A DNA stretch of 64,000 nucleotides. It comes from Marchantia polymorpha subsp. ruderalis (taxonomy: Eukaryota; Streptophyta; Marchantiopsida; Marchantiales; Marchantiaceae). Where the stretch lies: the NCBI GenBank assembly GCA_037833965.1, contig AP031352.1:29142501-29206500 (forward strand), written 5' to 3'. The stretch's first letter is position 1. Each line of letters begins with the position of its first letter. A program made the translations under genes and the position numbers. The notes beneath the pieces were generated by a model that ran no database searches, had not been told where the DNA came from, and saw only the letters and a program-made list of their open reading frames with translations. Below are positions 1 to 59,621 of the stretch, piece after piece.

Positions 1-719
1 TCAGCGCAACTCATGCCAGCGCATCCGGCCGTCAGCGCCACGTCGGAGGCGTACATCCGACCGGCGCTTTCCTTCCATGAACAGCCGCCAAGGGCGCTTC
101 CGACTCTGAGTTGGTTTCCTCCTGTGAGCGCGTGATTCCGCCGAAGGCGCATCGCCGAGGGCGTACGGGAATCCTTTCCGGCTGTGAACCCTAGCGCGAA
201 CGGCGCATGTCCGGCTACGAGTTTTCCGACGCTCATAACTTCTCCATTCCTGATCCATCTCCGGCGCTCTTGGACTCGTTAGAACGAGCGTCCCGAGCTC
301 TTTCTAATGCAACTTCAACCAACTGGATCTACCGTGTATCCCGATTGTTATGAAGGTTTTCCCTTTCCGCGCTAGCGGCGCTTCGCCGAAGGCGCACTCA
401 TGGTCGGATGCCTTTAGAGGTCCGGGCCCTTCCCCTGACGTCTTTAGCACAACCTCCTCCTGAGGTGTCTGCGCCGGAAGCGTAGCTTCCTTATACGCTA
501 GAGGCGCGTGAGTAGAGATACCTCAAAAAGGAGCTTTTGCCGAAGGCGCCGAAGACGTTGGCGTTGGTACATCCGACTACGTGATTCTTTGTGCCCTCGT
601 GACGATCTCATCAATCCACTCTATTTAGCGTACCCTTCTCTAGCTACAAACACTGCTTTGGTACTAGTTTTCTGAAATTGTTTAAATTCTGCAAAAAAAA
701 CAAAAAGTGTGTTACCACA
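1..719 (-). repeat. 3' LTR of the young gypsy element (first 719 bases only)
   Basis: It starts on the minus strand at base 719 with TGTGGTAACACAC, directly after the polypurine tract. It matches 10669-11387 at a constant offset of 10668 with no indel. The remaining 4.2 kb, including the third copy of the LTR reading frame, should lie left of base 1. It contains three GCCGAAGGCG hairpin motifs also seen in the other LTRs. Confidence 0.95.
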
Positions 720-733
720 TGCCCCCCTCCTCA
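720..733 (-). other. Polypurine tract (plus-strand primer)
   Basis: On the minus strand a G-rich purine run (GAGGAGGGGGG then CA) lies immediately before the TGTGG start of the 3' LTR and just after the pol stop codon. This is the expected position of the plus-strand DNA primer. The older copy lacks it at its junction (11387/11388), where LTR abuts gag directly. Confidence 0.85.
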
Positions 734-756: not shown

Positions 757-3498
757 TTACACGTGGTATTTCTTCAGACGCCATCCGTTCACGCGGGTGC
801 CTAACCATTCTCCCGTCAGTTCTGCGAGTTGGATGGATCCATTTGGGAAAACTTCTATCACCTTGTAAGGTCCCATCCACCTCAAGTGGAGCTTGCCTGG
901 AAATCTAGCATGTCTGCTATCGTATAGCAGAGCCAAATCGCCCTTCTCCAGCAGTACTGGTTTGAGTCTTCGATCGTACTTCTCCTTCCGCCTGAGTTGT
1001 AATTGCTTTGTCCGATCTTCGGCCTCTTGACGTCTTTCCTCCAGTGCCATTACCTCTTGCAGTCGATATGCCTGACTTTCTTCCGCGTCCAGCCTTCTCT
1101 GATTTAAGGTCCTCTTGGTAGGTATCTCGAATTCGATGGGTAAGATCGGATGTTGCCCATAAACTAGGAAGTAAGGTGTTTGCCTGGTGGTGACTTTTTC
1201 TGCCGTTCTATATGCCCATAAGGCGGCCGGTAGCTTGGTGTCCCAGTCATGAGCATGGTTTACAGTCACCTTGATGAGTATCTTACAGAGTAATCCATTG
1301 GACTTCTCTGTCAGACCATTTGCCTTGGGGTTGTATGGAGTAGTCTTCCGATGCTTAATCTGGAAGTGCCGCGTCAAACTTTCTATCACCTGATTCAGAA
1401 AGTGCGTCCCTCTGTCACTGACTATTTCTAGGGGGCACCCGTAGCGTGTGATGATGGATTCGAATAGGAACCGTGCTACTGCGGCTGCGTCATCGTGCCT
1501 TGTGGCTTCTGCCTCCACCATCTTGGTCGCATAGTCTGTTGCTACCAATATGTAGCGCCTGCGCGTGCCTTTAGTGACAGGTTGTATTGGTCCCACGAAG
1601 TCGATCCCCCATTTTTCAAATGGTGCTAATGGCATGATTGGTGTAAGAGGCCATCTCGTGGTCGGAGTCGGCCTTCCCGTCCTCTGGCAGCTGTCGCATT
1701 TGCGAACGTAGTCGTGTACATCTTTGAACATCGTCGGCCACCAGTATCCTGCATTCACAATTTTGGTCACTGTGTTTCTGGTGGCGTAGTGACCACCAGC
1801 GTCTTCTGTGTGCATGGCTTCGACAACTCGCGGTACTTCAGACTCCTCTAGACATCTGCACAACCTCTCGTCTGCCATTTTCTTGAACAAGACCCCCTGT
1901 TGAAGCTGGTAAGGTCCCGCTTTATGAACGAAGACTGTGTGCTGCTCCGCATCCAATCCTTCCGGACATTGGAGTGTGAGCAGAAACCTGTATAAGTCCG
2001 CGTACCTGGACTCATGGCTGGCGGAGAACTGAAAAAGTTGTTCGTCGGGAAAATCATCCACTACTTCCTCCTCTATGGGTTCGGTCCATAGTCGGGAGAG
2101 GTAGTCCGCGTTCTCATGGTGAACGCCTGTCCGTGTCTGTACAGTGTAGGTGAATTCCTGCAGCAGTAGCACCCACCTGGCAATTCGTCCGGACAGATCC
2201 GCCTTCTTCACCAGGTGCTGTAAGGCGTAATGATTTACATGAAACACGAACTCATAGCAGATCAAATAATGTCGGAACTTTTTACAGGAGTACACCATTC
2301 CCAACGCCTCCCTCTCAGTTGTCGTGTACTTCTTCTCTGCTGCTGACAACTGACGACTCGCGAAGTAAATCGGGTAGTCTTTCTTGTTGTCGTCCTTCTG
2401 ACTGAGAACCACCCCGATTGCAAACGCCGACGTGTCTACATAGACATGGAAAGGTCTGTTCCAATCCGTACTTCTCAGAACCGGAGCAGTCGTCAGTTTG
2501 GCTTTGAGCGTTTCAAAGGCCAGCTGTTGCTCCTTGCCCCACACATAGGGTTCATCCTTCTTAAGCAGCTTCGTCAGATCGGCTGCCAAGATGGCATACA
2601 TATTTATGAACCTTCTGTAATAACCTACATGGCCAAGGAAGGCCCTCAACTCACGCAGATTCGTTGGCGGCTGCAGTTCGAGAATAATCTTCACCTTCTC
2701 TACATCTACTGCAATGCCATCGGACGAAACTCGGTGCCCCAGCAGGATTCCGCTGGTCATGAAGAAAAAACATTTCTCAGGGTGTAAGGACAATCTGCTT
2801 TCCCTACACCTGTCGAACGTTTGCCGAAGATGGTTAAGGTGCTCCGACCTTTTACCGAAGACACAAAAGTCGTCGATGAAAATTTCTAGGAACTTCCTCA
2901 GGTGCTCTTGGAAAATGTTTGTCATCATCCGCTGGAACGTCGCTGGCGCGTTGCACAGACCGAACGGCATCTTGTGATAAGCATAGGTTCCCCAGTCGGT
3001 CGTGAAGGTTGTTTTGTCCTTGTCCTGTTCCCTGATGGACACCTGGTTGTAGCCGGAAAATCCGTCTAGAAAACTGTAGCATTCATGCCCTGCTACATGG
3101 TCCAGAATAGAGTCCGTGAAAGGAAGAGGGTGATGGTCCATCCGCGTTGCTGCGTTCAGCTTCCTGAAGTCCTGACACACCCGGATCTTACCCGTCAGTT
3201 TCTTGGGCACGATCACGATAGGCGACACCCACTCGCTACTGAGTACCGGGTAGATGATTCCTGCGCTCAGGTACTTATCGATTTCGTCCTTCACCAATAA
3301 TGAATATTTTGGGTTGAGCCTGTATTGGCGTTGGCGAACCGGAACTGCCTCGTCCAACAAGTCGATTCTGTGCTCTCCATACCTTGCAGGTATGCCTTTC
3401 ATGTCTTCAATCCTCCATGCGAAGACATCCTCATATTGGCGAAGAAACGCCTGTACCCTGTTCAACTCTTCTCCTTGTACCTGGCTTGACACCTTCAA
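757..3498 (-). CDS. pol: Pol polyprotein: reverse transcriptase, RNase H, integrase
   Basis: This frame encodes replication and integration enzymes. From the TTG at 3498 it spans 913 residues, but it has no ATG of its own. The frame is open upstream to the gag UAG, so it is most likely made as a gag-pol readthrough product. RT lies at about 95-265 with the FIDD catalytic pair at 207-210. RNase H spans about 345-470 with acidic residues D355, E396 and D465; the third expected aspartate is N422. The integrase zinc finger is H563, H570, C601, C604, and the catalytic triad is D633, D695, E731 with exactly 35 residues between the last two. A GPY-type tail (GPYKVIE) follows. Length and order fit Ty3/gypsy and no stop interrupts it. 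Confidence 0.95.
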   Translation of the reverse strand: MKVSSQVQGEELNRVQAFLRQYEDVFAWRIEDMKGIPARYGEHRIDLLDEAVPVRQRQYRLNPKYSLLVKDEIDKYLSAGIIYPVLSSEWVSPIVIVPKKLTGKIRVCQDFRKLNAATRMDHHPLPFTDSILDHVAGHECYSFLDGFSGYNQVSIREQDKDKTTFTTDWGTYAYHKMPFGLCNAPATFQRMMTNIFQEHLRKFLEIFIDDFCVFGKRSEHLNHLRQTFDRCRESRLSLHPEKCFFFMTSGILLGHRVSSDGIAVDVEKVKIILELQPPTNLRELRAFLGHVGYYRRFINMYAILAADLTKLLKKDEPYVWGKEQQLAFETLKAKLTTAPVLRSTDWNRPFHVYVDTSAFAIGVVLSQKDDNKKDYPIYFASRQLSAAEKKYTTTEREALGMVYSCKKFRHYLICYEFVFHVNHYALQHLVKKADLSGRIARWVLLLQEFTYTVQTRTGVHHENADYLSRLWTEPIEEEVVDDFPDEQLFQFSASHESRYADLYRFLLTLQCPEGLDAEQHTVFVHKAGPYQLQQGVLFKKMADERLCRCLEESEVPRVVEAMHTEDAGGHYATRNTVTKIVNAGYWWPTMFKDVHDYVRKCDSCQRTGRPTPTTRWPLTPIMPLAPFEKWGIDFVGPIQPVTKGTRRRYILVATDYATKMVEAEATRHDDAAAVARFLFESIITRYGCPLEIVSDRGTHFLNQVIESLTRHFQIKHRKTTPYNPKANGLTEKSNGLLCKILIKVTVNHAHDWDTKLPAALWAYRTAEKVTTRQTPYFLVYGQHPILPIEFEIPTKRTLNQRRLDAEESQAYRLQEVMALEERRQEAEDRTKQLQLRRKEKYDRRLKPVLLEKGDLALLYDSRHARFPGKLHLRWMGPYKVIEVFPNGSIQLAELTGEWLGTRVNGWRLKKYHV

Positions 3499-3591
3499 GC
3501 CTTTACCTGGACTGAGCTGCAGTTCGCAGCAATCACTCGGGTCAACAATCCCCTCTGTGTGACTGATCTCGCTTATGCCCAGTCCGGCTGC

Positions 3592-3600
3592 TAGTTGCTA
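3592..3600 (-). promoter_or_regulatory. Leaky UAG readthrough site between gag-protease and pol
   Basis: On the minus strand the gag stop and next two codons read TAG CAA CTA. This fits the type I readthrough consensus UAG CAR YYA known from tobamovirus replicase genes. Gag (phase of base 6435) and pol (phase of 3498) are in the same frame. The 33 codons between the UAG and base 3499 contain no other stop, so one suppression event would give a polyprotein of about 1890 residues. Confidence 0.8.
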
Positions 3601-6435
3601 TTCGTCATCCGGATACACCTCGTCTCCTTCCTCCTCAATGGAGCAGCAAGTGACGTAGCCCACAAAGTCTTCCGACGTTTCGGTCTCTGAAGTGCATGAT
3701 GAGCTGGTCTCTCCTCCGGTTGTGTAACCGGAGGTGGTGGAAGGTGTTTCGCCCTCATGGGGTACCTTGGTCCATGGTACGGTAATGACAGTCGGAGGGT
3801 CCGCAGGGCTACGGAACTGTAATCTCTTCCTACTCCAGTCACACCTTGCTTTGGCATCGTATAGCCACGGTCTGCCAAGCAGCACATCATAACCTTTCTT
3901 CATCAGAGGTTGCAGTATTATGTAGGACAGTTGAAAGTCCACTCCTCCAATGTTGGTTCTCACATTGCTCAACATTCCTAGTGGCATTCTGCGTGTTTGA
4001 TCGGCCAGTCGCAATACTCGGGATGTAGGCTCGAAGGTCTGGAACCCCAAGGAGTTCGCTGTCTCCTCGGTCATGATATTCACGCCCGAGCCGGAGTCCA
4101 CTGGTACCTTCTGAATGACACAGCCTCCGATCTCTACTTCGATCTCTGGTGGTCCCAGGTCTCCTCCTTCCACTCTGTACACAGCCGGAAGTTTCTCTTT
4201 TCGGGGTTTGCGTGGTCGGCGCAACGAAAGCATCAGCATCCTCCTGTACGTCTTATTGTCTTCCAACAACTGGTGGAAGGAAATATTTGCCCTCTGGCTC
4301 CCCATGTCTTTCACTATGTCGTAGGGAGTGTTGGAAGTCACGGCCGGAAGTTTCCCTGTACTCGCGGTCGGAAGGGGTGTAGGGGGCCTAACTGCCTTCC
4401 GGTCGTCGGATGTCATTCCGGCGCCCAGTGCTTCCTTGATGAGGTGATTCACCTCATCTTTGATGTCCGGAAGGTAATCTCGAGTCCGGAACTCTTCTGA
4501 ATACCTGTCCGCCTTTTCTGAGTTCTGCTCCGGCTGGGTGTTCCTCATAGCCGGAGGTGTACCCGGCCTTCTCCTCGGGCCTTCTCTAACTTCTTTAGAC
4601 TTCCTCCTCTCTTCCCTACGCTCGAGGCGGCGAGTGTCCTCGTGGCCTTCTCCTCTCCTCTTCGAACTTCGGGTTTCTACCCGGCCGCACATTACTTCTT
4701 CCTCTGGCCATACTTCGTCTCCTTCAGCTGGGTCCAGACTCAGTTCTACCTGGTTGACCTGCACTTCTTCCTTGCCAGGTGTTGATACGAAACGCACGGC
4801 TGGCCTAGGGATTGGTGGCTGGTCACATTCAGCTGCTGTATGTCCGGACTTCTTGCAATTGCTGCACAATGGTGCATACCCCATTGGCTTCCTCGGGTGG
4901 GGACAACTTGGCGCGTAATGCCCCATGTCTCCGCAGTTGTAGCAACCATCGAATTGTGGTCGAGGTCGGTGATTTCCTGTGTGATTTCCTGGAGGTGCCA
5001 TGCGTCTTGGTGGGAGTGTACCCGCCATTTCCCTTGGAACAAAGCGCGGTATATGCACCGGTGGGTTCGGAGTTGTAGCTGGAGCTGTCTGTACCGAGTA
5101 GGCGGTGTCCTCAACCTGCTCAGCATAATACATAGGCGGCTCAGCATAATACATGGGGGTCTCCCACTGTGGTGCCCATTCGACCGCATTCACTGGGTAA
5201 GATGGCCTCGCGGACATGCACTCCGTGTTGGCATGTCCCACCTGTCCGCACGTAGTACACCAGAGATTTGCTCGTTGTCTCGCAGGTGATTTACGTCGGT
5301 CTTGGCCTCCCACTACATGAACTTTCAGGTCCGCAAAATTCTTCACCAGGTTGTCTACCTTGGCTGCGATGTCCCCTTGAGTCTTCACTGGGATTCCCTT
5401 ACCTCGATCCTTCTTCTTGATCGCACTGCGTTTCTTCTTCCGTCTTTCTTCTTCTGAAGATGACGAGTCCTCTTCCTCTTCCGAGGAAGAACTTGATTCG
5501 GAGGAGCTTGATTCTTCTGTCGAGGAAGGCGAGTTCCTTCTCTTCCGACGTCCGCCTTGCGACTTCTTCTTCGTCGACCGTCGGTCGCGTCTTCGAGTGT
5601 CAAGGGTTGACGTCTCAAAGGTCTCCGCGGAAGCTATCACATCTTGGATTGTGTCAGTCTTGCCTCTCCTACAGAAGGTCTCCATTTCTCTTGAGAGCCC
5701 TGTCACATACCAATCCACTGCCTGTTGTACCGAATACGGTTCTCCCGGGCCTGTCTTCGGAATTCGATCTAGGAGGTCTTGGAATCTCTCAGTGTAGTCT
5801 CGAAGATTCTCCTTCCGCTCGCGTCGAAGATTTCGAAGCCGGGTCAGAACTCGACTGTCATATCCGAGTTCGCGGAACCGCTTCAGAAACTTTTCCTTGA
5901 GCTGAGCCCAGGTCCGGATGCCAGTGGGGTCGGTGCTCTCATGGTTGTACCAGCTACGCGCTCGTCTGCGTAGCAGGCTAGGAAAGATTCGTAATCTGTC
6001 TTCATCACTGGTCTCACGATTGGCGATGGAGACAGACTCGAAGAGCTTTATGTATGAATCTGCATCATCGTCGTCGCCCGTTCCCGTGTATCTTGGATAC
6101 GAATGTTTGGTGGTAGGTTGGGAAAACACCTGGCGGAGATTGGCTTGATGTTCTGCCATCGGTGATCCTGTCGACGGACTGATCCTAGGTTGGCCAAACT
6201 CAGGAAGAGTTCCCGTCGGAGGGATGTCCAATAGAACTGTTAGCTCAATGCTCTCGGTAGGTGAACTGGAACGCCTTTGTCTTCCAGTAGTCGGTGATGG
6301 CGATCTTTCTGCAGAGTCCTCACCGGGAGTCTTCTTTTTAGTTCGCCGTTTTGTTTCCACGGCTTTTTCTGAATCTCGACGGAGTTTCCGTGTGGCTCTC
6401 GCACTCAGGTTTCCCACACTATCGCTCGTCGACAT
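3598..6435 (-). CDS. gag: Gag-protease polyprotein
   Basis: This is the structural protein of the particle plus an aspartic protease, 945 residues from an ATG at 6435, 44 bases after the primer-binding site. Visible parts, in order: a basic, Ser-rich N terminus; a retrotransposon Gag (capsid-like) domain at about 115-275; an acidic Ser/Glu tract near 300-330; and three CCHC zinc knuckles at about 393-406, 498-511 and 524-537 (each C-x2-C-x4-H-x4-C). A retropepsin-like domain follows with VDSGSG near 780 and LLGRPWL near 855. The frame ends in UAG, followed in phase by pol. Three knuckles is more than the usual one or two. The older copy at 11388-11628 keeps only the first 80 codons. Confidence 0.95.
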   Translation of the reverse strand: MSTSDSVGNLSARATRKLRRDSEKAVETKRRTKKKTPGEDSAERSPSPTTGRQRRSSSPTESIELTVLLDIPPTGTLPEFGQPRISPSTGSPMAEHQANLRQVFSQPTTKHSYPRYTGTGDDDDADSYIKLFESVSIANRETSDEDRLRIFPSLLRRRARSWYNHESTDPTGIRTWAQLKEKFLKRFRELGYDSRVLTRLRNLRRERKENLRDYTERFQDLLDRIPKTGPGEPYSVQQAVDWYVTGLSREMETFCRRGKTDTIQDVIASAETFETSTLDTRRRDRRSTKKKSQGGRRKRRNSPSSTEESSSSESSSSSEEEEDSSSSEEERRKKKRSAIKKKDRGKGIPVKTQGDIAAKVDNLVKNFADLKVHVVGGQDRRKSPARQRANLWCTTCGQVGHANTECMSARPSYPVNAVEWAPQWETPMYYAEPPMYYAEQVEDTAYSVQTAPATTPNPPVHIPRFVPREMAGTLPPRRMAPPGNHTGNHRPRPQFDGCYNCGDMGHYAPSCPHPRKPMGYAPLCSNCKKSGHTAAECDQPPIPRPAVRFVSTPGKEEVQVNQVELSLDPAEGDEVWPEEEVMCGRVETRSSKRRGEGHEDTRRLERREERRKSKEVREGPRRRPGTPPAMRNTQPEQNSEKADRYSEEFRTRDYLPDIKDEVNHLIKEALGAGMTSDDRKAVRPPTPLPTASTGKLPAVTSNTPYDIVKDMGSQRANISFHQLLEDNKTYRRMLMLSLRRPRKPRKEKLPAVYRVEGGDLGPPEIEVEIGGCVIQKVPVDSGSGVNIMTEETANSLGFQTFEPTSRVLRLADQTRRMPLGMLSNVRTNIGGVDFQLSYIILQPLMKKGYDVLLGRPWLYDAKARCDWSRKRLQFRSPADPPTVITVPWTKVPHEGETPSTTSGYTTGGETSSSCTSETETSEDFVGYVTCCSIEEEGDEVYPDDE

Positions 6436-6478: not shown

Positions 6479-6496
6479 TCCCCGGCAGCGGCGCCA
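6479..6496 (-). other. Primer-binding site, tRNA-Asp type (young element)
   Basis: The minus strand reads TGGCGCCGCTGCCGGGGA, complementary to the 3' end of a plant tRNA-Asp apart from minor mismatches; Athila-type elements use the same class of primer site. It lies 9 bases inside the inferred LTR end (ACA at 6508-6506) and 44 bases before the gag ATG. This fixes the LTR as 4.9 kb rather than a short LTR plus a long leader. Confidence 0.8.
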
Positions 6497-6751
6497 AAAA
6501 GAAGTTGTCGGCTCCTTATGTAATAACCCACCAAAGGCTAAAACTGCAGTATGGTGGTAAAAAGATCGAACCCACAGGGACAGAGGCAACACACAGAGTA
6601 AAAGTGTCACGTTTAACAGACTTTTGGTAGAGTTTGAATTCTAGGCAACTGTCACTCCCAGAATACTGTAGTGCTCGACTCGGAGGCTCGACTCGGAGGA
6701 GGAACTCAACTCGGAGGATGCTCGGAGGATGCACGGTACAGCTTGGTCACT

Positions 6752-6771
6752 CAACACACACACACACACAC
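6752..6771. repeat. CA microsatellite in the R-U5 part of the LTR
   Basis: An uninterrupted (CA)n tract. The equivalent place in the older LTR (near 11947-11962) has a shorter run, one of the few length differences between the two LTRs. Confidence 0.8.
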
Positions 6772-7436
6772 CTGAAACTGGCAAAAAGCACAACTCGGAG
6801 GTCGGTCAGGACCTCCGCTTCGGATTTCAGGAGGAAAGTGTCTCGCAAGTTCACTCAGAGGTTCTGCAGGAAGTGCCTCCCACTCCGGCTTTTACTGCCC
6901 TTCCGCCAGGAACTAGCGGGGGTACCCGGACTGGACTTCTCACTTCGGAACGAAGCCTCTACGTACGCCGTGGACGTCACCCTCGACTATCACACAAAAC
7001 GCAGGGAGTGCAGACCCGACTGAGAACTTACTGAAAACACGATCCAGTAACACACACACAACCTGAATTACAAACCAAGGTTTACACGAAGTAATGAAAC
7101 TTCACATTGGCATTCAGGGGAAACTTCCCGTAGGAGTACAATCAGGATATGTCACTCGAAGGAGTAAGGGGGAACTGTTCAAGTATCTAACTCGCAGCCG
7201 GCTCTGAGTATCAGAAATCACCCGCAGGTGCAGATCCGCACTACTCAAGTCTCTAACCGGGTACTAGCTCTGAACATTCAGCCGAAGGCCTTCAACTACA
7301 ACATACGGTAACTTCGCTATGCTGCAGCTTCTCTACGTGGTGCCAGGACCAAAATGCACAAACACGCCAAGAAAGTGAGTTCCTGATCTGCACTTCCGAA
7401 ACTGGAAGAGTCCCAAGGCAAAACGCCTTGATCTAC

Positions 7437-7442
7437 TTTATA
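7437..7442 (-). promoter_or_regulatory. TATA box of the LTR, downstream of the LTR reading frame
   Basis: The minus strand reads GAGTATAAAGTAG about 35 bases after the stop of the LTR frame, and the same motif is at 12633-12628 in the older LTR. If this is the gag-pol promoter, transcription starts near 7410. The frame then lies wholly in U3, and R-U5 is about 0.9 kb. A second weaker candidate (TATAAGG) lies near 11163-11157, upstream of the frame, and could serve it. Confidence 0.5.
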
Positions 7443-7475
7443 CTCTCAAAAGATCCTAACTAGCACTACGCTATC

Positions 7476-10031
7476 CTATCTACCACTCGCAGCATCTGCG
7501 CGAAACCAAACTACTCTACTGCACTCGGCAGATCCGGTGCTGCGCCTCCTGCGCGCCGGACTGCTCCGCGTACTATCTCTACCCTGCCAGTCTTCCGACC
7601 GGCTGCGTAACCCCAGGCGTCGGAGCGCTGCAGTGACTTCCGACTGCAAGTGCGCCATAGTGTCGCGCGCACCCGACAGAAAAGTTTCTAATTTCCTTGC
7701 CACTCGCCGCCGACTCCGACTGTCACCTTCCGTCAATGCCGCCGCCCGAAGCTCGAACTCCCGGAGTGTAACCCTCTCTTGAGCTGCCACCTCCCAATGG
7801 GTGTATCCGTTTAGACAACGAGTCACCCGTGCCGCCAACTCTCCTCGTGCCCTGCAGCTGCTCTCCACCTCTGCCAGCTGCATTTCTAAATCCGCACGTT
7901 GTGTCCTCAAATCCGAGCACTCGGTTTGCAAGTTGCACAACAACTCCTCATCCTCCTTCCGGGCTCTTTGACTTTCCTCTAAGGCGCGCGTCTGGCGCGC
8001 AAGCTCGGCTGCTAGGACTTCGTTCTGTCTCCGCTCCTCCTGCAGTTCCGACTCGATCTTTGCCCGTATTAGTTCGGCCTCCGCCTGACTCTTCGTCGCC
8101 GCATCCTCCTTCTGCTGCTGCAAGGCTTGGTACAGCTTCTGGGTGACCGCCAGGTGTTGTCGGAGGGCGGTGTTCCTATCCACATATACTCCGCATCTAG
8201 AGGCCCACCTTGCCACCTTGCTCCTCGTCCTTCGCCTGATTGTCTCCACATAAGACTGCGGTTTTAAGGCACTTCCGTATTTGGATGTCTTGCGATCCAG
8301 ATATCGCAGGAGTGGAACTATCTGTTCGCACAGCACCCCTGTTGGCGTTTTCTGCACTGACTCCTCTTCTTGCTCTTCCGAGCTCGTATCATCCTCAGTC
8401 GCGAGGATTTCAGTCGCCACCGAATCCCTTGGCGACTCCCTGGAACTGTGGCGCGCAGCAGCTTCTGCTGCGACTGCTGCTCCACTGCCTGCTAAAATAT
8501 CCAGGGCAGTGGGAGATCCCACTGCTTGAGCCCCTGTTCCGGCTCGATCTTCGGTTTGTGAAGGGGTCGACGCCGTAGTGACTTTTGTCACTCTTGCACC
8601 GCCCGCTTCTGCTGCCTGTCCTTCCGGCGCAATCTGCGCGGAAGGTGTCCTTGCTGAAGGTGCGTCCGCCGAAGGCGTCCGCACACTGGTCGTTGGCCCC
8701 ATCCGTCTTGCAGTCGGCGAATCCGGCTGACTCTCTGTTGTCCGACTCGCAGTCGGCCGACCATTAGTTGTCCGACTGGGAGTCGGATACACCCTGCGCG
8801 TCTTGACTCCACTTGGCCTACTTGTTGGTGGCGTTCTTCCAGAAGTGCCTTCCGCCGAAGACGACCCTCTGAGGATTGTTGGCTCGTCAGCCAAACTCTC
8901 TCCCGCTTCCGGCCTGCTGTCCGGTTCAACGCGCCGTTCAGTTGGCCTTCCTTCCGTCTGTCGACCTTCAGTCATCCGACTCGCAGTCGGCCGGTCGTCA
9001 GTCCGTCCATCTCCTCCCGAAGGCCGTGGTGCCTTCTGTGCAGAGGTTTCTGCCGTCTTCCCTAGGACCTGAGCAATTATCTCTTCCTGCGTGAGATTCC
9101 GCCGGGTCGGAGTTCGCCTGGTCTCCTCAGTAACAGTTGGCATTCTGCGTGCCCTCTGTTTTGGTCGACTATGAGGCTCGGGGGTGGGCCGACCACGAGT
9201 CGGCGCAGCTGGTACTTCCGGCTGCCTGTCCTCAGGTCTCTCATCCCACTTCCGCTTGCGCGGAATGCGCTCACTTCGACGTTCTTCTGCTGCTCTGGCT
9301 GGAGCCGGAGCCGGAGGCGTACTGGCAGGTTCCTCGTCCGGATCCGTGTCTACTTCGGCCTCCCTCGAATATCTACCTGGATAAGACCGGCTCAGCTGCG
9401 GAAACCGAGTTTTCTCAGCATTCGTCAAACATCCCATCGCCCGGTAAAACACGATTAAGTAAGGCGATAGATGATTGAGCGTTCCTCCCCTCTCTTCTTG
9501 CGCATGTTGGCGCGTCACCTTCCACAGAAGTCGTGCCCAATGCACCGGAGCTCCTGACAACACTAGCTCCACGAACTCTACCTGCCAACCATGCATGTAA
9601 GCGGTCTTGGTCGGCTGCAATATCTGCAGCAATGCTGTCGCGACATTTCTCCGCAATCGATCCTTGTAATCCCGAGTCCGGAAACCGTTCTTGGGATGTC
9701 TAGCCACCTTGAAGAGCTCATTGTAAGAGACTTCTTCCTCTTGGGACACTTTCACGCTGTCGGCCTCGAAGAGGAGATCCCCTTCCTCGCCGGCACACCT
9801 GCCCAACACCTGCGCCCAATTGCCAATTTCCCATCTCTCTGGGTGTGGGCGAAATCCGCGAGAAGGCTTGTGTCTCTCTTGCAGATACTCGCGCACCATC
9901 TCCGGACACGTCCAATTCCACCCCCATAGGAGAAAATCGAGCTTCAACCTCAACAGCACATCTTGAAATGCGCGTAGACCGATCTGCGGCACCCTGAGTG
10001 GAGACACTCGCAGCTGGGGAACCTTCGACAT
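7476..10031 (-). CDS. Unrecognised 851-residue protein encoded inside the LTR (U3)
   Basis: I do not recognise this protein. The start is the first ATG (MSKVPQLRV, 10031); the frame is open further upstream but only from a TTG, and the older copy shifts frame there, so the extension is not coding. Residues 1-215 look folded, with Trp-rich helical segments such as LDFLLWGWNW and VHWARLLWKV. A disordered Arg/Pro/Ser/Thr linker (about 220-550) follows, with a basic PRKRKW near 258 and imperfect PTASRTTE-like repeats. Then come a conserved block (555-620), a long coiled coil (about 625-730) and a basic tail. The older LTR preserves exactly the same 851-codon length with mostly single substitutions. 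That argues for protein-level constraint or recent spread. Faint resemblance of the N domain to the plant transposon-protein (transposase_32-like) domains is a guess. No enzymatic motif is seen. Confidence 0.8.
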   Translation of the reverse strand: MSKVPQLRVSPLRVPQIGLRAFQDVLLRLKLDFLLWGWNWTCPEMVREYLQERHKPSRGFRPHPERWEIGNWAQVLGRCAGEEGDLLFEADSVKVSQEEEVSYNELFKVARHPKNGFRTRDYKDRLRRNVATALLQILQPTKTAYMHGWQVEFVELVLSGAPVHWARLLWKVTRQHAQEERGGTLNHLSPYLIVFYRAMGCLTNAEKTRFPQLSRSYPGRYSREAEVDTDPDEEPASTPPAPAPARAAEERRSERIPRKRKWDERPEDRQPEVPAAPTRGRPTPEPHSRPKQRARRMPTVTEETRRTPTRRNLTQEEIIAQVLGKTAETSAQKAPRPSGGDGRTDDRPTASRMTEGRQTEGRPTERRVEPDSRPEAGESLADEPTILRGSSSAEGTSGRTPPTSRPSGVKTRRVYPTPSRTTNGRPTASRTTESQPDSPTARRMGPTTSVRTPSADAPSARTPSAQIAPEGQAAEAGGARVTKVTTASTPSQTEDRAGTGAQAVGSPTALDILAGSGAAVAAEAAARHSSRESPRDSVATEILATEDDTSSEEQEEESVQKTPTGVLCEQIVPLLRYLDRKTSKYGSALKPQSYVETIRRRTRSKVARWASRCGVYVDRNTALRQHLAVTQKLYQALQQQKEDAATKSQAEAELIRAKIESELQEERRQNEVLAAELARQTRALEESQRARKEDEELLCNLQTECSDLRTQRADLEMQLAEVESSCRARGELAARVTRCLNGYTHWEVAAQERVTLREFELRAAALTEGDSRSRRRVARKLETFLSGARDTMAHLQSEVTAALRRLGLRSRSEDWQGRDSTRSSPARRRRSTGSAECSRVVWFRADAASGR

Positions 10032-11387
10032 TGCGTTGCCTGCACACACACAAACGTTCTCCCTTTCGCTCGCTCTCTCACAATCGCCACTGCGCGTCGG
10101 CCACTCAAGCACTGACTGCTCACTCTCTCTGCGCTCGTTCAAGATCGCTACTCCAATTCTTTCAAGGTCCGCCAAGATCCTTGCGCAACTCGTCTCCGCA
10201 CTCTCTACTCTCACTGCAGGTCGCTCCGCCCTTGCGCGTAATCTTGGAACTGGAAATCGCAAAGTCAAGAATGAGAGAATGAGACTGGAGCGCAGTCTTT
10301 TCTTCTCCGATTTCAAGAACGTCCAACGTTCTTACTGGTTGCAACGTACGCAGCCGGCTATACGGCTTAACGGTTCGCCCTTTGCATGCGCGAATTCACG
10401 TCTCCGCCTTGCGCGCATTCGCATGCTTAAACGTTGAATTCTCCCGCCGCCGCCACCTTCCGGACTCGAGTCCGCTGCAGGGTATACGTCGGCCCTGTTG
10501 TCTTTTCCTAACCCGCCCTTCTCCGGAGGCGTGTCGCCGCTGGTGTGTTCATTATCCGTCGGCGCCTCGCTGGAGGCGCACATCCAGCCGGAGCGAATTA
10601 CGCCGGCGCGCAGTCGTACCGCCTATTTTGTCCTTTATGCCTCGTCCGTTGCTGCCAGCGCATATCCGTCAGCGCAACTCATGCCAGCGCATCCGGCCGT
10701 CAGCGCCACGTCGGAGGCGTACATCCGACCGGCGCTTTCCTTCCATGAACAGCCGCCAAGGGCGCTTCCGACTCTGAGTTGGTTTCCTCCTGTGAGCGCG
10801 TGATTCCGCCGAAGGCGCATCGCCGAGGGCGTACGGGAATCCTTTCCGGCTGTGAACCCTAGCGCGAACGGCGCATGTCCGGCTACGAGTTTTCCGACGC
10901 TCATAACTTCTCCATTCCTGATCCATCTCCGGCGCTCTTGGACTCGTTAGAACGAGCGTCCCGAGCTCTTTCTAATGCAACTTCAACCAACTGGATCTAC
11001 CGTGTATCCCGATTGTTATGAAGGTTTTCCCTTTCCGCGCTAGCGGCGCTTCGCCGAAGGCGCACTCATGGTCGGATGCCTTTAGAGGTCCGGGCCCTTC
11101 CCCTGACGTCTTTAGCACAACCTCCTCCTGAGGTGTCTGCGCCGGAAGCGTAGCTTCCTTATACGCTAGAGGCGCGTGAGTAGAGATACCTCAAAAAGGA
11201 GCTTTTGCCGAAGGCGCCGAAGACGTTGGCGTTGGTACATCCGACTACGTGATTCTTTGTGCCCTCGTGACGATCTCATCAATCCACTCTATTTAGCGTA
11301 CCCTTCTCTAGCTACAAACACTGCTTTGGTACTAGTTTTCTGAAATTGTTTAAATTCTGCAAAAAAAACAAAAAGTGTGTTACCACA

Positions 11388-11628
11388 CAAACTCAGGAAG
11401 GGTTCCTGTCGGAGGGATGTCCAATAGAACTGTTAGCTCAATGCTCTCGGTAGGTGAACTGGAACGCCTTTGTCTTCCAGTAGTCGGTGATGGCGATCTT
11501 TCTGCAGAGTCCTCACCGGGAGTCTTCTTTTTAGTTCGCCGTTTTGTTTCCACGGCTTTTTCTGAATCTCGACGGAGTTTCCGTGTGGCTCTCGCACTCA
11601 GGTTTCCCACACTATCGCTCGTCGACAT
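11388..11628 (-). pseudogene. gag: Gag N-terminal fragment of the older copy
   Basis: It encodes the first 80 residues of Gag (MSTSDSVGNL to TLPEF), nearly identical to the intact gag at 6435-6196. It then runs directly into LTR sequence, where the frame ends after two foreign codons. Small differences (for example GGGTTCC against GAGTTCC) show it is not a direct copy of the neighbouring young gag. Confidence 0.9.
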
Positions 11629-11671
11629 TCACCGAGCATTGCTGCTCAAGGTTTCTGGTGTTGACGCACTG

Positions 11672-11689
11672 TCCCCGGCAGCGGCGCCA
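11672..11689 (-). other. Primer-binding site, tRNA-Asp type (older copy)
   Basis: The same 18-base motif as at 6479-6496, between the gag fragment and the 5' LTR of the older copy. Confidence 0.8.
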
Positions 11690-12627
11690 AAAAGAAGTTG
11701 TCGGCTCCTTATGTAATAACCCACCAAAGGCTAAAACTGCAGTATGGTGGTAAGAAGATCGAACCCATAGGGACAGAGGCAACACACAGAGTAAAAGTGT
11801 CACATTTAACAGACTTTTGTAGAGTTTGAATTCTAGGCGACTGTCACTCCCAGAAATACTGCAGTGCTCGACTCGGAGGCTCGTCTCGGAGGAGGATCTC
11901 AACTCGGAGGATGCTCGGAGGATGCACGGTACAGCTTGGTCACTCAACACACACACACACACCTGAAACTGGCAAAAAGCACAACTCGGAGGTCGGTCAG
12001 GACCTCCGCTTCGGATTTCAGGAGGAAAGTGTCTCGCAAGTTCACTCAGAGGTTCTGCAGGAAGTGCCTCCCACTCCGGCTTTTACTGCCCTTCCGCCAG
12101 GAACTAGCGGGGGTACCCGGACTGGACTTCTCACTTCGGAACGAAGCCTCTACGTACGCCGTGGACGTCACCCTCGACTATCACACAAAACGCAGGGAGT
12201 GCAGACCCGACTGAGAACTTACTGAAAACACGATCCAGTAACACACACACAACCTGAATTACAAACCAAGGTTTACACGAAGTAATGAAACTTCACATTG
12301 GCATTCAGGGGAAACTTCCCGTAGGAGTACAATCAGGATATGTCACTCGAAGGAGTAAGGGGGAACTGTTCAAGTATCTAACTCGCAGCCGGCTCTGAGT
12401 ATCAGAAATCACCCGCAGGTGCAGATCCGCACTACTCAAGTCTCTAACCGGGTACTAGCTCTGAACATTCAGCCGAAGGCCTTCAACTACAACATACGGT
12501 AACTTCGCTATGCTGCAGCTTCTCTACGTGGTGCCAGGACCAAAATGCACAAACACGCCAAGAAAGTGAGTTCCTGATCTGCACTTCCGAAACTGGAAGA
12601 GTCCCAAGGCAAAACGCCTTGATCTAC

Positions 12628-12633
12628 TTTATA
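12628..12633 (-). promoter_or_regulatory. TATA box of the older LTR
   Basis: The GAGTATAAAGTAG context is identical to that at 7442-7437, at the same distance after the LTR frame's stop codon. Confidence 0.45.
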
Positions 12634-12666
12634 CTCTCAAAAGATCCTAACTAGCACTACGCTATC

Positions 12667-15222
12667 CTATCTACCACTCGCAGCATCTGCGCGAAACCAA
12701 ACTACTCTACTGCACTCAGCAGATCCGGTGCTGCGCCTCCTGCGCGCCGGACTGCTCCGCTTACTATCTCTACCTTGCCAGTCTTCCGACCGGCTGCGTA
12801 ACCCCAGGCGTCGGAGCGCTGCAGTGACTTCCGACTGCAAGTGCGCCATAGTGTCGCGCGCACCCGACAAGAAGGTTTCTAATTTTCTTGCCACTCGCCG
12901 CCGACTCCGACTGTCACCTTCCGTCAAGGCCGCCGCCCGAAGCTCGAACTCCCGGAGTGTAACCCTCTCTTGAGCTGCCACCTCCCAATGGGTGTATCCG
13001 TTTAGACAACGAGTCACCCGTGCCGCCAACTCTCCTCGTGCCCTGCAGCTGCTCTCCACCTCTGCCAGCTGCATTTCTAAATCCGCACGTTGAGCCCTCA
13101 AATCCGAGCACTCGGTTTGCAAGTTGCACAACAACTCCTCATCCTCCTTGCGGGCTCTTTGACTTTCCTCTAAGGCGCGCGTCTGGCGCGCAAGCTCGGC
13201 TGCTAGGACTTTGTTCTGTCTCCGCTCCTCCTGCAGTTCCGACTCGATCTTTGCCCGTATTAGTTCGGCCTCCGCCTGACTCTTCGTCGCCGCATCCTCC
13301 TTCTGCTGCTGCAAGGCTTGGTACAGCTTCTGGGTGACCGCCAGGTGTTGTCTGAGGGCGGTGTTCCTTTCCACATATACTTGGCAACTAGAGGCCCACT
13401 TTGCCACCTTGATCCTCGTCCTTCGCCTGATAGTCTCCACATAAGACTGCGGTTTTAAGGCACTTCCGTATTTGGATGTCTTGCGATCCAGATATCGCAG
13501 GAGTGGAACTATCTGTTCGCACAGCACCCCTGTTGGCGTTTTCTGCACCGAATCCTCTTCTTGCTCTTCCGAGCTCGTCTCATCCTCAGTCTCGAGGATT
13601 TCAGTCGCCACCGAATCCCTTGGCGACTCCCTGGAACTGTGGCGCGCAGCAGCTTCTGCTGCGACTGCTGCTCCACTGCCTGCTAAAATATCCAGGGCAG
13701 TGGGAGATCCCACTGCTTGAGCCCCTGTTCCGGCTCGATCTTCGGTTTGTGAAGGGGTCGACGCCGCAGTGACTTTTGTCACTCTCGCACCGCCCGCTTC
13801 TGCTGCCTGTCCTTCCGGCGCAATCTGCGCGGAAGGTGTCCTTGCTGAAGGTGCGTCCGCCGAAGGCGTCCGCATACTGGTCGTTGGCCCCATCCGTCTC
13901 GCAGTCGGCGAATCCGGCTGACTCTCTGTTGTCCGACTCGCAGTCGGCCGACCAGCAGTTGTCCGACTGGGAGTCGGATACACCCTGCGCGTCTTGACTC
14001 CACTTGGCCTGTTTGCTGGTGGCGTTCTTCCAGAAGTGCCTTCCGCCGAAGACGACCCTCTGAGGATTGTTGGCTCGTCAGCCAAACTCTCTCCCGCTTC
14101 CGGCCTGCTGTCCGGTTCAACGCGCCGTTCAGTTGGCCTTCCTTCCGCTTGTCGACCTTCAGTCATCCGACTCGCAGTCGGCCGGTCGTCAGTCCGTCCA
14201 TCTCCTCCCGAAGGCCGTGGTGCCTTCTGTGCAGAGGTTTCTGCCGTCTTCCCTAGGACCTGAGCAATTATCTCTTCCTGTGTGAGATTCCGCCGGGTCG
14301 GAGTTCGCCTGGTCTCCTCAGTACCAGTTGGCATTCTGCGTGCCCTCTGTTTTGGTCGACTATGAGGCTCGGGGGTGGGCCGACCACGAGTCGGCGCAGA
14401 TGGTACTTCCGGCTGCCTGTCCTCAGGTCCCTCATCCCACTTCCGCTTGCGCGGAATGCGCTCACTTCGACGTTCTTCTGCTGCTCTGGCTGGAGCCGGA
14501 GCCGGAGGCGTACTGGCAGGTTCCTCGTCCGGATCCGTGTCTACTTCGGCCTCCCTCGAATATCTACCTGGATAAGACCGGCTCAGCTGCGGAAACCGAG
14601 TTTTCTCAGCATTCGTCAAACATCCCATCGCCCGGTAAAACACGATTAAGTAAGGCGATAGATGATTGAGCGTTCCTCCCCTCTCTTCTTGCGCATGTTG
14701 GCGCGTCACCTTCCACAGGAGCCGTGCCCAATGCACCGGAGCTCCTGACAACACTAGCTCCACGAACTCTACCTGCCAACCATGCATGTAAGCGGTCTTG
14801 GTCGGCTGCAATATCTGCAGCAATGCTGTCGCGACATTTCTCCGCAATCGATCCTTGTAATCCCGAGTCCGGAAACCGTTCTTGGGATGTCTAGCCACTT
14901 TGAAGAGCTCATTGTAAGAGACTTCTTCCTCCTGGGACACTTTCACGCTGTCGGCCTCGAAGAGGAGATCCCCTTCCTCGCCGGCACACCTGCCCAACAC
15001 CTGCGCCCAATTGCAAATTTCCCATCTCTCTGGGTGTGGGCGAAATCCGCGAGAAGGCTTGTGTCTCTCTTGCAGATACTCGCGCACCATCTCCGGACAC
15101 GTCCAATTCCACCCCCAGAGGAGAAAATCGAGCTTCAGCCTCGTCAGCACATCTTGAAATGCGCGTAGACCGATCTGCGGCACCCTGAGTGGAGACACTC
15201 GCAGTTGGGGAACCTTCGACAT
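12667..15222 (-). CDS. Second copy of the LTR-encoded 851-residue protein
   Basis: It starts at ATG 15222 (MSKVPQLRV) and has the same 851-residue length as the copy at 7476-10031. The two differ by scattered substitutions (for example ARWASRCGVY against AKWASSCQVY in the conserved block) without stops or frameshifts. Upstream of the ATG there are a 2-base and a 1-base indel relative to the other copy. This supports the ATG as the true start and contrasts with the open frame downstream. Function is unknown; the layout is folded N domain, disordered Arg/Pro/Ser/Thr linker, coiled coil and basic tail. Confidence 0.75.
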   Translation of the reverse strand: MSKVPQLRVSPLRVPQIGLRAFQDVLTRLKLDFLLWGWNWTCPEMVREYLQERHKPSRGFRPHPERWEICNWAQVLGRCAGEEGDLLFEADSVKVSQEEEVSYNELFKVARHPKNGFRTRDYKDRLRRNVATALLQILQPTKTAYMHGWQVEFVELVLSGAPVHWARLLWKVTRQHAQEERGGTLNHLSPYLIVFYRAMGCLTNAEKTRFPQLSRSYPGRYSREAEVDTDPDEEPASTPPAPAPARAAEERRSERIPRKRKWDEGPEDRQPEVPSAPTRGRPTPEPHSRPKQRARRMPTGTEETRRTPTRRNLTQEEIIAQVLGKTAETSAQKAPRPSGGDGRTDDRPTASRMTEGRQAEGRPTERRVEPDSRPEAGESLADEPTILRGSSSAEGTSGRTPPANRPSGVKTRRVYPTPSRTTAGRPTASRTTESQPDSPTARRMGPTTSMRTPSADAPSARTPSAQIAPEGQAAEAGGARVTKVTAASTPSQTEDRAGTGAQAVGSPTALDILAGSGAAVAAEAAARHSSRESPRDSVATEILETEDETSSEEQEEDSVQKTPTGVLCEQIVPLLRYLDRKTSKYGSALKPQSYVETIRRRTRIKVAKWASSCQVYVERNTALRQHLAVTQKLYQALQQQKEDAATKSQAEAELIRAKIESELQEERRQNKVLAAELARQTRALEESQRARKEDEELLCNLQTECSDLRAQRADLEMQLAEVESSCRARGELAARVTRCLNGYTHWEVAAQERVTLREFELRAAALTEGDSRSRRRVARKLETFLSGARDTMAHLQSEVTAALRRLGLRSRSEDWQGRDSKRSSPARRRRSTGSAECSRVVWFRADAASGR

Positions 15223-16577
15223 TGCGTTGTCTGCACACACAAACGTTCTCCCTTTCGCTCACTCTCTCACAATCGCCACTGCGCGTCGGCCACTCAAGCA
15301 CTGACTGCTCACTCTCTCTGCGCTCGTTCAAGATCGCTACTCCCAATTCTTTCAAGATCCGCCAAGATCCTTGTGCAACTCGTCTCCGCACTCTCTACTC
15401 TCACTGCAGGTCGCTCCGCCCTTGCGCGTAATCTTGGAACTGGAAATTGCAAAGTCAAGAATGAGAGAATGAGACTGGAGCGCAGTCTTTTCTTCTCCGA
15501 TTTCAAGAACGTCCAACGTTCTTACTGGTTGCAACGTACGCAGCCGGCTATACGGCTTAACGGTTCGCCCTTTGCATGCGCGAATTCACGTCTCCGCATT
15601 GCGCGCATTCGCATGCTTAAACGTTGAATTCTCCCGCCGCCGCCACCTTCCGGACTCGAGTCCGCTGCAGGGTATACGTCGGCCCTGTTGTCTTTTCCTA
15701 ACCCGCCCTTCTCCGGTGGCGTGTCGCCGCTGGTGCGTTCATTATCCGTCGGCGCCTTGCTGGAGGCGCACATCCAGCCGGAGCGAATTACGCCGGCGCG
15801 CAGTCGTACCGCCTATTTTGTCCTTTATGCCTCGTCCGTTGCTGCCAGCGCATATCCGTCAGCGCAACTCATGCCAGCGCATCCGGCCGTCAGCGCCACG
15901 TCGGAGGCGTACATCCGACCGGCGCTTTCCTTCCATGAACAGCCGCCAAGGGCGCTTCCGACTCTGAGTTGGTTTCCTCCTGTGAGCGCGTGATTCCGCC
16001 GAAGGCGCATCGCCGAGGGCGTACGGGAATCCTTTCCGGCTGTGAACCCTAGCGCGAACGGCGCATGTCCGGCTACGAGTTTTCCGACGCTCATAACTTC
16101 TCCATTCCTGATCCATCTCCGGCGCTCTTGGACTCGTTAGAACGAGCGTCCCGAGCTCTTTCTAATGCAACTTCAACCAACTGGATCTACCGTGTATCCC
16201 AATTGTTATGAAGGTTTTCCCTTTCCGCGCTAGCGACGCTTCGCCGAAGGCGCACTCATGGTCGGACGCCTTTAGAGGTCCGGGCCCTTCTCCTGACGTC
16301 TTTAGCAAAACCTCCTCCTGAGGTGTCTGCGCCGGAAGCGTAGCTTCCTTATACGCTAGAGGCGCGTGAGTAGAGACACCTCAAAAAGGAGCTTTTGCCG
16401 AAGGCGCCGAAGACGTTGGCGTTGGTACATCCGACTACGTGATTCTTTGTGCCCTCGTGACGATCTCCTCAATCCACTCTATTTTGCGTACCCTTCTCTA
16501 GCTACAAACACTGCTTTGGTACTAGTTTTCTAAAATTGTTTAAATTCTGCAAAAAAAACAAAAAGTGTGTTACCACA

Positions 16578-21004: not shown

Positions 21005-22742
21005 ACTGAGCTGCCGACTGCCCCGTCCCGGTTTGCCGGTTGGCGTCAACTTGCTCATCCATCCCTCCGTCGATCCTAAGCATGCACTCTCGTCTCCGAA
21101 CTCCGGAGGCCAACGGAGGCGACCGGCAGCCTACAACCGAAGAGACGATTTCAAAATGCGTCTGGGGAAGGTCGCGTCCGGGGAAGGTCGCCGCGCCACG
21201 TACAAATAGAAAAGAATGTCCGGTGCCATTTGGATGAGACGTCCGTCTCAAACAACTTCTGTAACTCCCGGTGTCATGAGGACCAGATCGGGGATCAAAT
21301 TGTAAATTCTACATTCTGTGGCCCTGGCTAGATAAAAGCAGTGGAACATTTCATTAAACGTTTGGGGAACGAATTCTCTCTAAACTTGATTTTCCATGCA
21401 GTTGTGGAACATTTATATTGATCTAAAACTTATTATTGAGTATCAATCCAGAAAGTCTTTCTTCTAACATCATCCAACATTATTTAGCGTGTTCAACTTA
21501 ATTATCAAAAACAGTGTCCTGGATATATGTGAGATGATACAATGTAAATCACAAGAGTATACAGAATTTTATCCATATGACCTCCAACTCAAGGAGGCTT
21601 TTTTTCTGAAACGACGTCTATTTGAATTTATCAAATTTGATTTTTTGATACATAATCTTCCCAAAAGAATATTGTCTTGAATCGGACTTGTCTACATCAT
21701 TTACTACCGCTACATTTCAGGTTCGGCTCGAATGACACACATACACGGACGAAAGAGTCGAACAATACAAAATTTACTCTCAAAACCGCTATGTACAGGT
21801 GGTTATCACGATAGCATAAAATGTATAACTACAGTTAAACCAAATGTAATTTGTATTTATAATCACGCTCTTGGAAACATCTAAGCTTGTGAATTTTGGA
21901 TGTAGTATGAGATGTATTTTACTTGTCCAAGTTTATTAATTTTCTCTTTATGAAGGTATTACTTGACCATTTCTTATTTGTATTCTTCATGTAAGAATAT
22001 AATGATGATAATTTAGATGCAAAATGTATGTAGATAAGTCGTTGTTGGTTCAAAGAGCAAAGTATGACCACTCGCAATGATGTTAGATGTTTGACAAGAT
22101 GGAAGAAGTTTTGAGACGTCTTTCATCCTAGAAGGACTAAACATATACATTATTGATTTGAAAAGAACATGTGTTTACAATTGAAAATGATAAATCTAAA
22201 CTGCTATAATATCTTGTATTTTGGATGGATCACATAATAGGTTTATGCAGGGACGTCCATATTTAATACTCTCGTATTGGAATGCAAACTTGGATTATCT
22301 ATGGGAGAATGCGAAATACAAGCATACTATGCTGCTTATGCATATATGCAGCAATAGTATGCTTGTATTTCCCTTTGCTTTGAAAATTATGCTTGAAATG
22401 TTCCACTGCTTTTATCTAGCCAGGGCCACAGAATGCAGAATATACAAATTAATCCCCGATCTGGTCCTCATGGCACCGGGAGTTACAGAAGTTGTTTGAG
22501 ACGGACGTCTCATCCAAATGGCACCGGACGTTCCTTTCTATTTGTACGTGGCGCGGCGACCTTCCCCGGACGCGACCTTCCCCAGACGCATTTTGATGTC
22601 CTCTCTGCGGTTGTAGGCTGCCGGTCGCCTCCGTTGGCCTCCGGAGTTCGGAGACGGGAGTGCATGCTTAGGATCGACGGAGGGATGGATGAGCAAGTTG
22701 ACGCCAACTGGCAAACCGGGACGGGGCAGTCGGCAGCTCAGT
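21005..22742. mobile_element. Foldback-type element with 348-bp inverted arms
   Basis: The left arm (21005-21352) and right arm (22395-22742) are inverted copies with only scattered mismatches. Outer ends read ACTGAGCTGCCGACTGCC on both sides; inner ends read GCAGTGGAACATTTC. The arms are GC-rich while the roughly 1.04 kb centre is AT-rich and has no recognisable gene. I could not find a clear target duplication at the outer ends. It could be a non-autonomous DNA transposon or a local inverted duplication. Frames that appear in both arms (for example DGGMDEQVDAN) are mirror copies and probably not coding. Confidence 0.8.
22314..22370. repeat. Long hairpin inside the foldback centre
   Basis: AAATACAAGCATACTATGCTGC at 22314-22335 pairs with 22348-22370 over about 22 base pairs with a single bulge and a loop of about 12 bases. 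It lies close to the inner edge of the right arm. Confidence 0.75.
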
Positions 22743-58700: not shown

Positions 58701-59282
58701 TTAGATTACACAGAGCTTAAATAAAGGTATCCTGTATTTTAGTAGAACATTCTTCTTATTTTAAAAATAACTCTAATAGTTTTATTTTTGAAAGAGGGGT
58801 TATAGAATTCGTGACCGGAAATTTACAGCCCATTTCCGGTTCGTATATTCTCTCAGCTGCTGATATATTTTATTCTACAGCGCAATTTTTAAATGGCATG
58901 TGAAATTGAGCGTCTGTTTGTTGCATATTACTTCAATTATAACGTAACAAGGATTTATCTCGCCACACACACAGTTTAATACTTGCAGATTTTGGCTTCT
59001 GTAGTTACACTATTCGTCCATAAAAGACATGGATAACATTCCCTCTAAAGAAATTTCATGTGTATGAACATAAGCATCAAATATGCAATCGTAACTTGAC
59101 TTTTTTTTTAATCTGTATGATCGGTTCGGAGCCGGATACCTGCGGACTCAGGAATATACTAGCACAACACAATATATATATGCCTACGTGGCTCCAATCC
59201 AAACAATATGATCGATGGAAAAATAAAAGAACAAGACAACGAGATTTACCCAGGTTCGGACCAAAATGTCCTACTTACTGCT
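55798..59282. other. ALOG 3' flank and intergenic DNA
   Basis: A (TC)n tract lies at about 55830-55846, shortly after the ALOG stop, probably in its 3' UTR. Beyond it only short frames occur. From about 58580 the sequence becomes AT-rich up to the copia LTR. Nothing else could be supported. Confidence 0.5.
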
Positions 59283-59611: not shown

Positions 59612-59621
59612 CATCCTCCTC
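59612..59621 (-). other. Polypurine tract of the copia element
   Basis: AGAGGAGGATG on the minus strand overlaps the end of the pol stop codon and abuts the TGGAGAG start of the 3' LTR. Confidence 0.7.

Follow-up and report, generated by a model that had tools for sequence, protein, structure and literature searches.

An extra protein gene in the long terminal repeats of a Ty3/gypsy retrotransposon group of Marchantia polymorpha, likely placed in U3 and likely encoding a nuclear accessory protein

In mouse mammary tumour virus (MMTV), the sag gene lies wholly within the long terminal repeat (LTR) and is driven by a second promoter in U3 (PMC9412291, in excerpt). We describe here a comparable arrangement in a plant. 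In a 64,000-nucleotide stretch of Marchantia polymorpha subsp. ruderalis (assembly GCA_037833965.1, contig AP031352.1, positions 29,142,501 to 29,206,500; hereafter the window), the minus strand carries a Ty3/gypsy element with an LTR length of 4,869 bp. As with sag, a protein gene sits wholly in this LTR, probably in U3, and its sequence leads us to propose a U3 promoter of its own. Unlike sag, the Marchantia open reading frame (ORF) belongs to a plant Ty3/gypsy element, runs to 851 codons, carries a nuclear-type motif and has no Pfam match. An initial sequence-only reading of this DNA had pointed to the sag parallel, which holds for location in the LTR and fails for sequence.

Other described systems share some of these features. 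The plant Ogre, Tat and Athila (OTA) elements are, like the Marchantia element, gypsy elements without a chromodomain that combine long LTRs with an extra ORF and use a tRNA-Asp primer; their extra ORFs (eORFs) are described as diverse, most of them lacking known domains (PMC6317226, in excerpt). The Marchantia ORF differs in having no Pfam match to the OTA extra-ORF families (plant mobile domain, Athila ORF-1). Rice Retrosat2, RIRE3 and RIRE8 resemble it in their long LTRs, at least about 3 kb, and in a faster-evolving extra ORF before gag-pol, ORF0; the excerpted account describes ORF0 upstream of ORF1 and does not place it in the LTR, and the comparison is by description only (PMC3485330). 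A candidate functional analogue, also by description only, is CERV of the C. elegans LTR retrotransposon Cer1, an extra nuclear, assembling protein required for export of Cer1 RNA; unlike the gene proposed here, CERV is the product of a spliced mRNA (PMC10309623, in excerpt). Our search of the open-licence literature, with few queries aimed at that wording, found no published case of an ORF inside the LTR of a plant element, which is a weak negative.

The reading frame and the element that carries it

The ORF, its second copy and the elements that hold them are as follows.

7476..10031, minus strand: 851-codon ORF in the 5' LTR of the young element (stop codon 7476-7478, ATG at the 10031 end)
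12667..15222, minus strand: second intact 851-codon ORF, in the 5' LTR of the older element
6519..11387, minus strand: 5' LTR of the young element, 4,869 bp, TGTGG...TTACA, with one mismatch against the 3' LTR in locus L009 and target-site duplication GTTTG
1..719, minus strand: beginning of this young element's 3' LTR, the remainder lying beyond the window (locus L009)
3598..6435, minus strand: gag-protease ORF, with Retrotrans_gag, zinc knuckles and aspartyl protease (Pfam)
757..3498, minus strand: pol ORF, with reverse transcriptase (RT), RNase H and integrase (Pfam)
6479..6496, minus strand: primer binding site TGGCGCCGCTGCCGGGGA, 18 nt, complementary to tRNA-Asp(GTC) plus CCA
722..732, minus strand: polypurine tract adjoining the 3' LTR, identified by eye
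11712..16577, minus strand: 5' LTR of the older element, of the same family, 4,866 bp
11388..11711, minus strand: remnant of the older element (leader and 5' part of gag), split by the younger one

We confirm that a protein-coding frame lies within a retrotransposon LTR, as the sequence-only reading had noted. The ORF occupies LTR positions 1357-3912 and is thus entirely inside the LTR, as in an LTR-encoded gene of the sag type, with 851 codons in both copies in the window. From stop to stop its open frame measures 951 codons; when the LTR was simulated 500 times under a first-order Markov model, the maximum over the three sense frames was 352, and antisense frames of the LTR itself reach no more than 164. 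The second copy differs from the first by 49 substitutions (27 nonsynonymous, 22 synonymous) and no indels, and the copy in the young element's 3' LTR (L005) is identical to that at 7476-10031. Frame-breaking indels had been said to lie outside the ORF, and this is what we find: between LTR2 and LTR3 there are two upstream, three downstream and none inside.

One point needs correction: the two complete LTRs in the window are 5' LTRs of two different elements, a young one (6519-11387) and an older one (11712-16577), and not the two ends of one element. The younger, having inserted into gag of this older member of the same family, interrupts its frame, with GTTTG as the target duplication. Its own two LTRs differ at one position over 4,869 bases and share the TTACA end, and their flanks form the GTTTG duplication (alignment with L009). 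This near-identical pair, together with the duplication, the primer binding site and the polypurine tract, sets the LTR borders.

The gag-protease-RT-RNase H-integrase order is that of Ty3/gypsy elements. No chromodomain match was found and the primer is not tRNA-Met, as in the non-chromovirus Ty3/gypsy elements, OTA and others (criteria from PMC6317226, in excerpt). The primer site begins 22 nt past the LTR end and matches the tRNA-Asp 3' terminus by base pairing; 29 places in the genome carry its complement together with the T arm, and both loci that we cut out are tRNA-Asp(GTC) genes. In L037-L040, whose LTR ends are unproved, the gap between LTR end and primer site seems similar to 22 nt.

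Copies, families and selection

We searched the 241-Mb, nine-contig genome with the ORF and scored the best 40 of 3,685 candidates. All 40 are full-length ORFs at 99-100% identity, and 34 of them form 17 same-strand pairs spaced 10.59-10.67 kb apart, as expected of 5' and 3' LTRs. From these matches we took 22 LTR-sized pieces as a sample of family A, skewed to young copies; the frame is free of indels in all 22 and of premature stops in 21. The flanks were read for four of the six unpaired copies. Three are solo LTRs, with perfect duplications (L033 ATCAA, L021 CACCC, L024 GGAGC) and no primer site behind them, and the fourth, L034, is a 3' LTR preceded by pol and a polypurine tract. The solo LTR at L021 is the one copy with a premature stop; its flanks (L059, L060) resemble by eye the ORF's own linker, that is, an insertion into the ORF of another LTR.

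A search with the primer-site motif gave 1,273 places and led to a related ORF in L041. When we searched with the related ORF (40 of 6,008 candidates scored), family B, among the 44 matches listed, comprised the query copy and 43 others at 79-94%, and we sampled eight loci, L045-L052, of which L045 is the query. The L045 protein is 49% identical to that of the window ORF over 834 aligned codons and 59% identical in the N domain, with no indel between family A and L045 in residues 1-246. Family-B copies are decayed, each of the eight loci carrying one to eight point stops. Seven of these loci have a readable LTR end, and in three (L045, L047, L050) a perfect 5-bp duplication surrounds an LTR of 5.1-5.2 kb; none was found by pattern in the other four. 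Since the primer-site motif is present in none of the eight loci, these three are solo LTRs, and the ORF sits inside each of them. The ORF therefore lies within the LTR in two families.

A third family (L042-L044, on contig C1) has the same primer site and pieces of the ORF; because its copies are rearranged and broken, we drew no LTR borders for them. Contig C1 (5.6 Mb) holds 54 of the 1,273 places with the tRNA-Asp primer motif (4.2%) against 2.3% of the bases, many at a recurring spacing; as a guess, it may be the sex chromosome.

For the analysis of selection we divided the ORF, by boundaries of our own, into an N domain (residues 1-235), a basic linker (236-560) and a C part (561-851). 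Differences fixed between families A and B give dN/dS ratios (omega) of 0.23, 0.54 and 0.27 for these divisions, with denominators that use all codons and so lower both rates, whereas changes private to single decayed family-B copies give 0.97, 0.62 and 0.89. Private stops in family-B copies number 8, 3 and 5 against 5.5, 5.6 and 6.0 expected, near the neutral rate. The low omega of fixed differences, set beside private changes that are near neutral in the N domain and C part, indicates that dead copies drift and that the source lineage was constrained. Pairwise N-domain omega between family A and five of the eight family-B copies is 0.17-0.27, while wrong-frame controls in the alignment with L047 gave 1.39 and 1.43. 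The more distant L042 gives an N-domain value of 0.34, close to saturation, and the comparison of L047 with L042 is saturated.

Within family A (24 sequences) the 96 distinct changes consist of 57 nonsynonymous, 38 synonymous and one stop, against 62.8, 29.6 and 3.6 expected; 18 of the nonsynonymous and 16 of the synonymous changes are confined to the older LTR. In the N domain the counts are 6 nonsynonymous to 11 synonymous against 11.0 to 5.1 expected (omega 0.25, P = 0.004).

Several results speak against selection, or against its reaching the whole frame. Over the whole ORF, omega within family A is just 0.71 (P = 0.04), and neither the linker (1.10) nor the C part (0.77, P = 0.24) is significant on its own. 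The private changes of the linker fall short of the expectation of about 1, and a comparison of fixed with private changes by codon position shows no significant difference across the ORF as a whole (P = 0.10). The three phases of a non-coding block carry 23, 17 and 29 differences, so a degree of phase bias occurs even where no protein is encoded. The gag gene is under stronger constraint (omega 0.09, from one copy only, L040, and near saturation), and all seven family-B loci other than L045 carry frame indels relative to it.

The frame could in principle be unselected and persist only through the youth of its copies, as the near identity of the best 40 family-A matches, a list skewed to the top, would allow. 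We consider this very improbable, given the low dN/dS between families with far-diverged synonymous sites and the wrong-frame and private-change controls. The sequence-only reading had itself named three signs of a spurious frame. A dN/dS near 1 is not what we observe, the values between families lying far under 1 in both the N domain and the C part; frequent frame-breaking indels do not appear in the young-skewed family-A sample; and the ORF is no capture limited to two copies, as, besides the full-length matches, there are protein relatives at 35 to 95% and loci at 35-65% identity. These substitution rates show that the N domain and the C part have been under purifying selection in the replicating lineages, and on this basis the ORF is a genuine gene, maintained by selection inside the LTRs of two or more families within a single group of plant retrotransposons.

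Expression signals and the position of the ORF in the LTR

Two candidate signals flank the ORF.

7433..7442, minus strand: TATAAAGTAG, candidate TATA box of the genomic RNA, beginning 33 nt past the ORF stop codon, at LTR position 3946
10253..10275, minus strand: block CTCATTCTTGACTTTGCGATTTC, candidate start site of the ORF mRNA, about 245 nt ahead of the ATG

The candidate TATA box is identical in 22/22 family-A LTRs and 8/8 family-B loci, in surroundings that form a block 83% identical between family A and L045. The 21-nt core of the upstream block is present in the same 22 LTRs and eight loci with at most one mismatch. Ahead of the ORF, LTR positions 1004-1356 contain no ATG against 4.0 expected (P = 0.012), and in family B no ATG lies between block and ORF in seven of eight loci (two in L051). 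The conserved TATA box behind the stop, together with the conserved block and ATG-free leader before the ORF, suggests that the ORF is probably located in U3, with a putative promoter of its own. On the other side, both candidate promoters are read from sequence, no TATA was seen at the upstream one, neither motif was found in the third-family loci L042-L044, and the ATG-free stretch was picked post hoc, counted from the last ATG onward.

The upstream block might instead be where the genomic RNA starts. The ORF would then lie in R/U5 as the first cistron of that RNA, an Ogre-like extra 5' ORF past which the LTR border has moved. Extra ORFs upstream of the polyprotein are indeed known in plant elements, most OTA elements having eORFs (PMC6317226, in excerpt), and in a public gene model, P0015 (MARPO_0006s0274), gag is fused to the C part of a related ORF, which would reflect either a spliced read-through transcript or a prediction artefact. 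However, the TATA box, identical in all family-A and family-B copies examined, sits behind the ORF and would give gag a leader of about 1 kb rather than about 3.8 kb. We regard a first cistron as rather unlikely.

The ORF could also be a gene in the env position, expressed by splicing from the genomic RNA's 3' end, its place in the LTR having arisen through a shift of the polypurine tract to its upstream side; sag and nef may be compared. In plants, the commonest extra ORFs are those found between pol and the 3' LTR (PMC7264820, in excerpt), and in family A an acceptor-like stretch, TTTGTGTGTGTGCAG, ends 8 nt ahead of the ATG. This stretch is not conserved in family B, whereas the upstream block is; for this reason we rejected a spliced ORF mRNA with its acceptor at the ATG, and a gene in the env position appears to us a rather unlikely explanation.

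Elsewhere in the window, positions 21005-22742 form an inverted repeat with 349-nt arms, 96% complementary and separated by 1,040 nt, which is perhaps a DNA transposon or foldback element. The open frame at 54814-55797 may encode a protein like the ALOG/LSH plant developmental proteins, and at positions 59001-63000 the GC skew is strong, close to -0.3 across 59-62 kb and +0.4 at 62-63 kb.

The protein and its proposed role

The linker of the predicted protein includes one motif of note.

9249..9263, minus strand: PRKRK, residues 257-261, nuclear-localisation-like motif

The protein is basic (isoelectric point 9.7, 13% Arg). In the variable linker, P.KR[KR] is present in 10 and PKQ in nine of the 12 rows of alignment A1, counted by eye, and composition and scattered weak matches to coiled-coil families suggest a putative coiled coil. 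Pfam includes a Sag model; our Pfam scan of the ORF gave no match to that family and just a sub-threshold match to DUF7761. Scans of 12 and 27 relatives detected no reliable domain, and among the 27 members neither plant mobile domain PF10536 nor Athila ORF-1 PF03078 was matched at E<=10 with HMMER filters on. A sequence search of the PDB gave nothing reliable (one match at E 0.21), and neither did fold searches with weak query models (Foldseek, PDB and viral; VIA-align). The first structure model was too poor (mean predicted local distance difference test score, pLDDT, 51.5), and in the second, a partial one, block means reach 70 in residues 11-40 and 101-160 only.

Our protein searches, which score about 8,000 candidates sharing 5-residue words and do not imply absence elsewhere, gave 78 distinct relatives, one of them 95% identical. 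All 66 that carry a source name are from M. polymorpha. Capture of a host gene was considered and set aside, as none of the 78 relatives found within that candidate set points to a host gene family. One entry, P0001 (Mp_8g15400), corresponds to the C-terminal 59% of an ORF copy and is annotated as a hypothetical protein. Two results count against assigning the protein a role: confidence in the model of the N domain is low (mean pLDDT 59.6), and no homolog of known function turned up in these protein searches.

A basic protein with a helical N domain, as modelled, and a charged, probably coiled-coil C part could be structural, a second gag-like or scaffold protein serving particle assembly or RNA packaging. 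However, the element already has a separate gag with capsid and zinc-knuckle matches, the weak model matches no fold at all, and the basic motif is of nuclear type, all of which make a structural role unlikely.

The explanation that we favour, and hold to be the likely one, is that the 4.9-5.2 kb LTRs of this Marchantia polymorpha Ty3/gypsy group carry an extra protein gene, most likely in U3, whose product is probably a nuclear accessory protein, a role suggested by motifs and position. A promoter upstream of the ORF would produce a separate ORF mRNA ending in the same LTR, and the TATA box just behind the stop would set the start of the genomic RNA. The protein would be nuclear, through its basic linker with PRKRK, and self-associating, through the putative coiled coil, and would act in trans on element DNA or RNA, for example as an early regulator or exporter of genomic RNA rather than as an enzyme or particle protein. 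Contained entirely in the LTR, the gene would be duplicated at both element ends with every transposition, and it persists in solo LTRs, as the solo copies of both families demonstrate.

More tentatively, and with some doubt, the LTR itself may be a mobile gene: a U3 with promoter, leader and the ORF of a trans-acting nuclear protein, so that a solo LTR would still be a working source. If this is true, every insertion would add two copies, and the protein would control the whole element group (activation, RNA export, silencing escape) after gag and pol are lost. Marchantia is easily transformed, which makes the function directly testable.

LTRs are usually treated as non-coding regulatory DNA, and a selected 851-codon gene in the LTRs of two families of plant elements departs from that. 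The sag arrangement would then extend beyond a mouse retrovirus, and solo LTRs could be gene copies, such as those that would have entered the public Marchantia gene sets as hypothetical proteins.
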